Positions 44,741 to 45,909 of a stretch of DNA of 64,000 nt are shown one piece after another. Each line of letters starts with the position of its first letter. Position 1 is the first letter of the stretch. A program made the position numbers and the translations under genes. Source of the stretch: Alphaproteobacteria bacterium. GTDB taxonomy: Bacteria; Pseudomonadota; Alphaproteobacteria; Micropepsales; Micropepsaceae. The notes below the pieces were generated by a model. The model saw only the letters and a program-made list of their open reading frames with translations, was not told where the DNA came from and searched no databases. The stretch spans positions 1-64,000 of the forward strand of contig CANHNJ010000006.1 in the NCBI GenBank assembly GCA_947462105.1, in the 5' to 3' direction.

Positions 44741-45025
44741 CTAGATGCGCGAAAGTTGCGCCAGATAGGCGTCCAGCACCGGCCGGTTGAGGGTCAGTTT
44801 CAGGAATTTGCCTTTGCGCGTGATTTCCACCAGCCCGGCATTCTCCAGCTCCTTGATGTGGTGGGAGAGGGTGGCGGCGGTGACTTTCTGTTTTTCGTTC
44901 AATTCGCTGCAGGCGGCATGGCCGCTGCACTTGCCGATCTGCTTCAGGATATCGACCCGGCGCGGTTCCGCCAGCGCCTTGGCGATCAGCGCGAACTGGC
45001 GGGGGGTGAGCTTGACGGCGGCCAT
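44741..45025 (-). CDS. ArsR-family winged-helix regulator
   Basis: A 94-residue winged helix-turn-helix protein: [19 protein letters not shown] (helix 1-2), [20 protein letters not shown] (recognition helix) and [13 protein letters not shown] (wing). Cysteines in [12 protein letters not shown] could serve as a ligand or redox sensor, but this is a guess. It is first in the minus-strand unit with the SDR, GMC and Tat genes. The ATG at 45025 has no clear ribosome site, so the true start may differ. Confidence 0.82.
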
Positions 45026-45149
45026 GATGGGAAAGTGGCGTGGGGCGGGGAGCGATACAAGGGTGGGGTGGTGGCCCGCCTGCGCCCCTTTGCGACGTCC
45101 GGGCGGCGACGCTACGCTGCCGCTAGGCGTCGCCTGACGCCGCTGCGGG

Positions 45150-45172
45150 CGCTTGGCTCCACCAATTCCCGC
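45150..45172 (+). repeat. inverted copy of the tRNA-Ala 3' end (left arm)
   Basis: Bases 45150-45172 repeat, in opposite orientation and without mismatch, the last 15 bases of the tRNA-Ala gene (CGCTTGGCTCCACCA) plus 8 bases of its downstream flank (ATTCCCGC). The matching arm is 45209-45231. See the findings. Confidence 0.9.
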
Positions 45173-45208
45173 ATGCTGTTCTGGTGAAAGGTGAGTTCCG
45201 CCGGTTGG

Positions 45209-45231
45209 GCGGGAATTGGTGGAGCCAAGCG
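45209..45231 (-). repeat. inverted repeat, right arm inside the tRNA-Ala gene
   Basis: The right arm of a perfect 23-bp inverted repeat with a 36-nt spacer. It overlaps the acceptor-stem 3' strand, the CCA end and part of the T-stem of the tRNA-Ala gene. Confidence 0.9.
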
Positions 45232-45292
45232 GGATCGAACCGCTGACCTCCTGCATGCCATGCAGGCGCTCTCCCAGCTGAGCTATGGCCCC
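45217..45292 (-). tRNA. tRNA-Ala (anticodon GGC)
   Basis: 76 bases including an encoded CCA end. Reading the minus strand: acceptor stem GGGGCCA/TGGCTCC with the G3:U70 wobble that marks alanine tRNAs, D-arm GCTCAGCTGGGAGAGC, anticodon stem CCTGC/GCAGG with loop ATGGCAT (anticodon GGC, codon GCC), and T-arm AGCGGTTCGATCCCGCT. All stems pair. It precedes the ArsR-like gene and sits next to the TIGR02300/aroA block, as in many alphaproteobacteria. Confidence 0.97.
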
Positions 45293-45402
45293 GAACCAAT
45301 TGGGACCGGTCTGGTAGCCGATCCCACGTAGCATTGCCAGCAAAAGTGTACTTACGGTTTTGCGTCCGGCAATGCGACAAACAAAAACGTCAATGTAAAG
45401 GC

Positions 45403-45909
45403 TTAGCCTTCGTCCTTGGTGATGTCGGCATCGATGATGCCCGAGACATCGTCTTCCTCGTCTTCGACTTCGCCGAGAAGATCGTTGTCTTCCTCGTCTT
45501 CGTCGTCTTCGATATCCTCGATCTCGACGCCTTCTTCGTCACTTTCGACCACCTGCATGCCTTCGGCGGTCTCGGGCTCTTCGGCCTCTTCTTCCTCTTC
45601 GTCCTCGCCGGTGGCGGCAACGTTCAGGGGCGCTTCGACGACGGCTTCTTCTTCCTCGTCCTCTTCGGATTCGGCTTCGCCGTCTTCTTCGTCCTCGTCG
45701 TCTTCCTCGTCATCGGTTTCGGCGGCGCGAACGACACCGGCGGGCTCGGGCTGGCGGCGGCGCTGCTTGAACAGCGCTTCCGGCTCGTACGAGAAACCGC
45801 ACTTGGGGCACTCGATCGGACGCTTCTCCAGATCGTAAAAACGGGCGTTGCACGCAGGGCAACCCCGTTTGGTTCCAAGATCTGCCTTGACCAAGAGTGA
45901 TGTTCCCAT
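45403..45909 (-). CDS. TIGR02300 family zinc-ribbon / acidic-tail protein
   Basis: A 168-residue protein conserved in alphaproteobacteria. The N-terminus carries two CxxC pairs, [20 protein letters not shown] and PKCGFSYEP (the FYDLN motif), likely a zinc ribbon. The remaining two thirds is extremely rich in Glu and Asp ([32 protein letters not shown]). Function is unknown; the acidic tail suggests a nucleic-acid-mimic or protein-binding role. It is divergent from aroA with only 70 bases between the starts, a conserved neighbourhood. The ribosome site is weak, so the start is not certain. Confidence 0.88.

Follow-up and report, generated by a model that had tools for sequence, protein, structure and literature searches.

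The tRNA-Ala(GGC) locus and its inverted repeat

The window, which is the whole stretch of 64,000 nucleotides (64 kb) that was analysed, encodes on its minus strand a tRNA-Ala(GGC) whose CCA end is part of the gene (45217-45292; ARAGORN and sequence). An inverted-repeat search places two 23-nt arms of 100% complementarity at and directly behind the 3' end of this gene, confirming the perfect 23-bp inverted copy of the tRNA-Ala 3' end that the sequence-only reading had claimed. The tRNA-side arm (45209-45231, minus strand) consists of the last 15 nt of the tRNA (45217-45231), namely 4 nt of the 3' strand of the T-stem, the 3' strand of the acceptor stem and ACCA, followed by 8 nt of the 3' trailer (45209-45216), so that, counted from the CCA end, it extends from -15 to +8. 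A spacer or loop of 36 nt (45173-45208), which has diverged among species, separates it from the distal arm (45150-45172, minus strand), an exact antisense of the tRNA 3' end and trailer that is recognized by the repeat search and in relatives. The end of the distal arm is overlapped by a REP-like palindrome (45077-45157, minus strand), which was delimited by eye and from relatives; its borders, placed by eye, are GCCAAGCGCCC on the left and GGGGCGCAGGC on the right, and its inner hairpin (45105-45134, minus strand, also by eye) carries the loop TAGCGGCAGCGTA at 45113-45125. Downstream and co-directional with the tRNA is a gene for an ArsR/SmtB-like regulator (44741-45025, minus strand), which scored 52.3 bits, just under the cut-off of 55. 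The names aroA, cmk, rpsA and TIGR02300 all exceed NCBIfam cut-offs.

Among the 19 inverted repeats listed in the window with arms of at least 15 nt lying within 150 nt of each other, the tRNA-Ala repeat ranks first and is the sole perfect one of at least 20 nt; a 23-nt exact match within 150 nt would not be expected to arise by chance. Other hairpins of the window (I8, I10) appear by eye to be terminator-like, with T-runs. The genome assembly to which the window belongs comprises 2.17 Mb in 41 contigs, is 98% complete and contains 39 tRNA matches. The check for other tRNA-Ala copies, which had been proposed from the sequence, gave a single tRNA-Ala(GGC) gene among the 38 of these 39 tRNAs that were read, and the arm is present once in the genome. 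A comparison of positions 44900-45500 with Rfam yielded one significant match, the tRNA itself, and three others (two miRNA families and one plastid family) far below their gathering scores.

Distribution of the arm among relatives

A tRNA-Ala match at an E-value of 1e-18 was obtained in 60 of 69 genomes of the genus, and the region around it yielded a GGC tRNA in 59 of these 60. The arm adjoins tRNA-Ala(GGC) in 16 of the 59 loci. In 11 it is perfect to -15 or -16 (G000, G001, G007, G008, G013, G024, G035, G079, G086, G089 and G090), and in five it is altered: G070, G071, G087, G081, in which the spacer has been lost and a short hairpin remains, and G011, in which the arm has decayed. Beside the tRNA of the remaining 43 loci the arm is absent, but in G066 an intact distal arm is displaced behind an insert of approximately 6.6 kb and in G092 a distal arm with one change is displaced behind an insert of approximately 0.9 kb. 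A gapped, imperfect inverted match in G065, spanning -10 to +25 and by eye leaving CCA unmatched, was not counted. The pattern GGCTCCACCA-N30..60-TGGTGGAGCC occurs in 12 of the 69 genomes and its reversed control in none of the 69.

A tree was built from the concatenated translations of aroA, cmk and rpsA of 53 genomes, seven of the 60 (G001, G092, G085, G080, G003, G031 and G010) having too little marker sequence to be placed. All 15 placed carriers fall inside one clade of 22 tips, and the arm is found in none of the 31 tips outside it, where G065 is located. In seven of the 22 tips of the clade, the tRNA has no arm beside it (G091, G030, G016, G088, G015, G014 and G066). The nearest relative of the window's genome in the tree, G088, is one of them, although its contig stops 270 nt beyond the tRNA on the downstream side. 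Where aroA was found in carriers, its product is 67 to 84% identical to that of the window.

An error of assembly or sequencing, with which the sequence-only reading had reckoned, might be suspected from the fact that the named carriers are, by title, metagenome assemblies and that many genomes of the genus are in hundreds of contigs, but identical arms with differing spacers occur in separate assemblies from different samples. Since the same arm occurs in the assemblies of relatives, such an artefact is refuted, and we give it practically no weight. The structure is real and old, and is common to one clade.

A decayed second tRNA-Ala gene in inverse orientation would also account for an arm that corresponds to the tRNA-Ala 3' end turned around, and in some Paenibacillus loci (see below) the inverse similarity seems by eye to extend into the T-arm. 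However, a second gene or pseudogene should resemble the tRNA through the T-loop and the anticodon arm, and the copy stops in the T-stem, at -15 or -16, in 11 of 11 perfect cases; moreover, Rfam recognizes only one tRNA in the region given above. The proposal of an old second tRNA-Ala copy therefore finds no support and is very improbable.

The same low probability is assigned to an attachment site left behind by an integrated element. Within the genus, tRNA-Ala(GGC) does serve as a site of integration: G085 possesses, 15 kb away, a 53-nt second copy of the 3' part of the tRNA, adjoining an open frame of 464 amino acids with matches to Phage_integrase and Arm-DNA-bind_3, and both G066 and G092 carry inserts between the tRNA and the arm. 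However, an attachment-site remnant calls for a direct repeat of the tRNA 3' end, as is found in G085, the one integrase site seen in the genus, whereas the arm in the window is inverted; the inserts of G066 and G092 displace the arm rather than create it; and no integrase was recognized among the seven flanking proteins scanned. The data thus give no backing to the view that the arm is the trace of an integrated element. The insertions at tRNA-Ala(GGC) include locus L273 (G085:C56), with the direct repeat and integrase gene, and locus L277 (G066:C164), of approximately 6.6 kb.

Conservation and mirrored changes of the arms

Conservation was assessed in 14 carriers, excluding G081 and G011, as the mean over 91 species pairs. 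The distal 15-nt copy of the tRNA is 0.97 identical, compared to 0.56 for the spacer (0.50 when shuffled), 0.63 for the 40 nt behind the distal arm (0.54 when shuffled) and 0.61 for the 60 nt upstream of the tRNA. A copy that remains at 0.97 while its neighbours lose most of their likeness has been kept, which drift hardly explains, and the notion of a random or recent duplication devoid of conservation, on which the sequence-only reading would have been abandoned, fails: comparison of the same locus in relatives finds the arm conserved across a clade.

In the 14 genomes, 315 of 322 paired cells are Watson-Crick, one is G-U and six are mismatched; in the decayed arm of G011 the corresponding numbers are 15, three and five of 23. 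The trailer part of the stem, 8 or 9 nt long, takes the forms ATTCCCGC, ATTTCCCGC, TTTCCCGC, TTTTCGCC and TTTCCGCC, each mirrored in the opposite arm, and Fitch parsimony requires at least five mirrored changes of the trailer stem among 11 genomes, at least three of which are read most simply as one-base insertions or deletions. Outside G011, all unmirrored changes are in the distal arm: one change of the tRNA copy in each of G070, G071 (the G-U pair) and G087, a GG to AA change that G071 and G087 share in the trailer part, and a deletion in G081. The two spacer types show a weak tendency to match each other in reverse complement (z 2.7, reached in 4 of 500 permutations) and in forward orientation (z 2.1, 16 of 500 permutations), both of which diminish if three genomes are left out.

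Predicted folding of tRNA-Ala precursors

Folds were predicted at equilibrium, leaving out modified bases, proteins and kinetics. The best predicted fold of the window's own precursor retains the acceptor stem if transcription has proceeded 0 to 32 nt past CCA, loses it by less than 2 kcal/mol at 40 to 50 nt, retains it at 52 to 58 nt together with at most 12 foldback pairs in the trailer and CCA, and loses it at 60 nt and beyond. With the whole distal arm transcribed, the foldback is predicted to be favoured by 15.1 kcal/mol; the predicted preference is 14.7 to 15.1 kcal/mol in 11 of 11 species with perfect arms, 1.8 to 8.0 kcal/mol in the five with altered arms, and 0.3 kcal/mol in the armless G015 and G061. 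The suggestion of a foldback that competes with the cloverleaf is thus backed by the predicted folds, with approximately 15 kcal/mol at stake when the arm is complete and less than 2 kcal/mol up to 60 nt. The cloverleaf is formed first during transcription, and it is in run-on precursors alone that the prediction gives the foldback the advantage. As tRNA-Ala(GGC) is apparently a single-copy gene, its maturation would have to occur before the foldback or despite it.

Because the foldback is predicted to be the more stable state of a run-on precursor, by 15 kcal/mol, a role at the level of RNA is possible, and with it the control device on tRNA maturation that the sequence-only reading had suggested. 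According to one such explanation, the precursor foldback is a selected 3'-end element, acting in termination, as a block to exonucleases or as a switch of maturation, and compensatory mutations maintain it. Retention of the arm across a clade in which the amino-acid identity of AroA is as low as approximately 67% is in keeping with this, as are the near balance of the two states before the arm is complete, the uniform preference for the foldback afterwards, and the prediction by a terminator scan of no canonical terminator-like site between tRNA-Ala and the next gene. Against this, the arm is absent beside the tRNA in seven of 22 clade members, the stem contains a single G-U pair compared to six mismatches and 315 Watson-Crick pairs while even indels of the trailer are mirrored, and no U-run follows the distal arm. 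We consider selection for such an RNA device a tentative explanation, distinctly on the unlikely side. The locus shares with intrinsic (Rho-independent) terminators a G+C-rich hairpin directly behind the tRNA, but differs from them in its 36-nt loop, in having the tRNA itself as left arm and in lacking a U-run, for which reason a canonical intrinsic terminator was rejected. Covariation of a stem is commonly read as proof of a selected RNA structure; for the near-perfectly covarying stem of this clade, on an apparently single-copy tRNA, mutation offers an explanation of no less merit. If the structure were selected, a tRNA precursor would be able to switch itself off.

Hairpins behind other tRNA genes

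Hairpins that start at the CCA end or within 6 nt of it were counted as abutting. In the window's own genome (38 of 39 tRNAs), ten tRNAs have an abutting hairpin, six have a hairpin that reaches into the tRNA, and one, the tRNA-Ala, has a hairpin that does so by at least 10 nt; shuffled trailers lead to expectations of 0.65, 0.10 and 0.05, respectively. In the clade members G008, G079 and G089 (111 tRNAs taken from 118 matches, six being too close to a contig end), the numbers are 31, 28 and five, compared to 2.30, 0.80 and 0.40 with shuffled trailers. In G044 and G049, which represent other families (55 tRNAs out of 86 matches), they are 12, seven and zero, compared to 0.90, 0.25 and 0.10. 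Abutting hairpins thus far exceed the shuffled expectation in both groups, and their frequency does not set the clade apart (41 of 149 versus 12 of 55; Fisher p 0.47). The idea that they are its peculiarity was rejected. Deep hairpins, of at least 10 nt, number six of 149 versus zero of 55, a difference that is not significant (Fisher p 0.19), and four of the six belong to the same tRNA-Ala.

The deep cases of G008, G079 and G089 are the tRNA-Ala of each, tRNA-Leu(CAA) of G079 and tRNA-Val(GAC) of G089. At tRNA-Leu(CAA) of G079 (L440, G079:C151), the last 16 nt of the tRNA are the left half of a 19-bp hairpin, and the foldback is perfect from -16 to +3 and is followed by TTTTATTT. It would thus be a terminator-like hairpin built on the mature tRNA 3' end, a configuration that is consistent with the selected RNA device. 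At tRNA-Val(GAC) of G089 (L382, G089:C8), an imperfect antisense of the T-arm and acceptor strand is located behind a perfect trailer hairpin. The sisters G000 and G088, of which ribosomal protein S1 is 96.7% identical, have trailer stems of tRNA-Leu(GAG) that differ for the most part in sequence but are paired in each. Across 21 clade genomes (L287-L307), the trailer stems of tRNA-Leu(GAG) are often wholly different between relatives and well paired, and in some the hairpin has been replaced by other sequence.

The most frequent depth of hairpins into the tRNA in G008, G079 and G089 is exactly 2 nt, and 11 of 17 hairpins of this depth are followed by TG[A/C]CAAG, a border of which the TG pairs with the CA of CCA and which is continued by a REP-like stem-loop whose loop is GCGNCAGCG. 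The full border 12-mer, TGMCAAGCGSCC, has 32 matches in seven clade genomes compared to 24 for the reversed control and so is hardly above background; in 10 of the 30 contexts of such matches that were read, it belongs to a composite element. This element consists of a hairpin, TG[A/C]CAAGCG[C/G]CC and a REP-like stem that in most cases carries GCGNCAGCG as its loop, and was observed at L341 (G079:C143), where it forms two tandem copies, and at L319, L327, L332, L333, L337, L338, L342 and L346. In G015, a member of the clade, the tRNA-Ala(GGC) is followed by a standard hairpin and the border TGACAAGC. A template-switch product (see below) would be expected to have an imperfect pre-state of this kind in a relative; the position of G015 inside the clade means that its standard state may be a later replacement.

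These features raise the question of whether a REP-like mobile palindrome settled behind the tRNA and brought the tRNA-matching sequence along in its own border. In 15 of 16 carriers, GCGNCAGCG, the loop of a REP-like stem, follows the distal arm at a distance of at most 90 nt, the CAAGCG of the border overlaps the arm, and a Y1 transposase (PF01797) is encoded by three of the ten clade genomes searched. However, the border accounts for only 6 to 8 of the 15 nt that match the tRNA, the stem sequences vary from place to place, and the window's own genome contains no match to PF01797 and only seven exact TAGCGNCAGCGTA motifs. The locus thus resembles REP/BIME palindromes in having a REP-like stem-loop with a recurring loop motif adjoining the arm and differs from them in that its stems are unconserved and its copies few. 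A plain REP element would be dispersed in many copies and the arm is present once in the genome, making this origin quite unlikely, if less so than an attachment site or a second tRNA.

A model of template switching

In the model that we judge to be the probable one, with confidence somewhat above an even balance, the palindrome was extended and has been kept matched by template switching of replication at hairpins behind tRNA genes. The mutational mechanism, the state that preceded it and the order of events would be as follows. The starting state would be a hairpin directly behind tRNA-Ala(GGC), with a stem beginning at the CCA end and a REP-like border after it. The 3' end of tRNA-Ala(GGC) is CGCTTG-gctccac-CA, and the border, TG-[A/C]-CAAGCG, could pair with it twice, as CA with TG and as CGCTTG with CAAGCG. 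In an ancestor, replication would have switched template at the hairpin and copied the tRNA 3' end backwards into the far side, carrying the seven unmatched bases of the tRNA across and generating TGGTGGAGCCAAGCG, the distal arm that is observed, ending at -15. Given that CAAGCG is already complementary to CGCTTG, copying of the seven intervening nucleotides would yield exactly the observed arm. Later template switches would re-match the arms whenever the trailer changes. We take the resulting structure to be tolerated and perhaps mildly useful, rather than a required switch.

The model is favoured by an identity of the arms that would exceed any functional need (23 of 23 positions in the window, with 11 of 59 loci of the genus perfect) and by the manner in which both arms change together, indels included (five mirrored changes, 11 genomes). 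Further points in its favour are the confinement of the arm to one clade of the genus, the preservation of the distal copy, the position of the one-sided changes of G070, G071, G087 and G081 in the distal arm, the stems of tRNA-Leu(GAG) that differ yet pair, the excess of abutting hairpins over shuffled trailers, the border behind hairpins of 2 nt depth, and palindromes at other genes whose outer part lies past a U-run (see below). PMC8794818 describes template switching as a maker and maintainer of RNA hairpins, and its authors term their own evidence for the maintenance of stems circumstantial. The statement of the sequence-only reading that no standard explanation exists is therefore too strong. 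Quasi-palindrome template switching as treated in PMC8794818, PMC8604942, PMC3820800 and PMC7202029 likewise involves copying of one arm from the other, mirrored changes of several bases and a hairpin as trigger, the subjects being stems of rRNAs and microRNAs, genes and assays in yeast, and assays in E. coli; the tRNA-Ala arm differs in that a tRNA 3' end is what was copied and in that the product is clade-wide and long-lived. The mechanism is thus a known one (PMC8794818), whereas the search of open-access literature brought up no description of a long-lived product of it at the 3' end of a tRNA, and no title among the results refers to a trailer that carries an antisense of the 3' end of its tRNA; publication elsewhere is possible.

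Several observations weigh against the template-switching model. Mismatches survive in the two sister species G071 and G087, from which it follows that re-matching is not constant, and G011 retains a decayed arm; the two spacer types, which inversion of the spacer in some lineages would be expected to relate as reverse complements, match weakly and in both orientations; a loop of 36 nt is long for priming by a hairpin; and selection would equally give long retention of one structure. The occurrence of abutting hairpins in other families, the lack of a significant difference in deep ones and the near-background frequency of the full border also count against it. The deep foldbacks at tRNA-Leu(CAA) of G079 and tRNA-Val(GAC) of G089 have no border, so the border can be at most one route, and they weaken the idea that its CAAGCG renders tRNA-Ala the only susceptible tRNA. 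Whether its cause is mutation or selection, the locus offers a natural series in which to test how hairpins arise and persist.

Similar palindromes in other bacteria

The same pattern was scanned over one genome per species in 84,980 species and matched 65 stretches, 11 of which correspond to the genus genomes described above. It is specific to the acceptor sequence of tRNA-Ala, and consequently the scan is silent on other tRNAs. In 15 stretches from Paenibacillus, Cohnella and one Bacillus sp., the pattern is at tRNA-Ala(GGC); in five it is at the 3' end of tmRNA, in Pseudoteredinibacter (L057, L100) and in Oscillospiraceae/Eubacteriales (L070, L102, L113); and in one it is at a tRNA-Thr of Brevibacterium. 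Nine further Paenibacillus stretches have no tRNA within 150 nt, and several of them resemble by eye pieces of the tRNA-Ala 3' end. The remaining 24 of the 65 likewise lack a tRNA at this distance and probably represent coding sequence or fortuitous matches.

Occurrence in unrelated bacteria could be understood if self-antisense trailers were a recurrent selected device that serves as a quality check on 3' processing, overlong tRNA or tmRNA precursors flipping into the foldback and being removed or terminated. This broader reading is doubtful, more so than selection in the clade alone. In the Paenibacillus and Cohnella tRNA-Ala, Pseudoteredinibacter and Oscillospiraceae cases that were inspected, the palindrome appears by eye to enclose a terminator-like core with a U-run. 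Pairing of RNA cannot select the outer part of a palindrome that extends beyond the U-run unless there is read-through, which argues against the RNA device, and an outer palindrome beyond the expected end of the transcript speaks for a cause at the level of DNA. Matches that extend past a U-run, as at these genes, are helpful in telling the mutational idea from the selective one.

Within the genus, tRNA-Met of G008 (L415) and of G079 (L416) likewise appears by eye to have a terminator-like U-run inside a palindrome. At the tmRNA genes, a terminator-like hairpin sits within a longer palindrome, in which the tmRNA 3' end recurs in inverse orientation. Pieces of the tRNA-Ala(GGC) 3' end with an extended hairpin are present in Paenibacillus at L055, L056, L072, L080, L088, L090 and L101; ARAGORN recognizes no tRNA-Ala in L072, L090 and L101, and an intact tRNA-Ala is located approximately 250 nt away in L055 and L056. 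The Paenibacillus pieces often share a similar downstream repeat, as if they were parts of dispersed elements.
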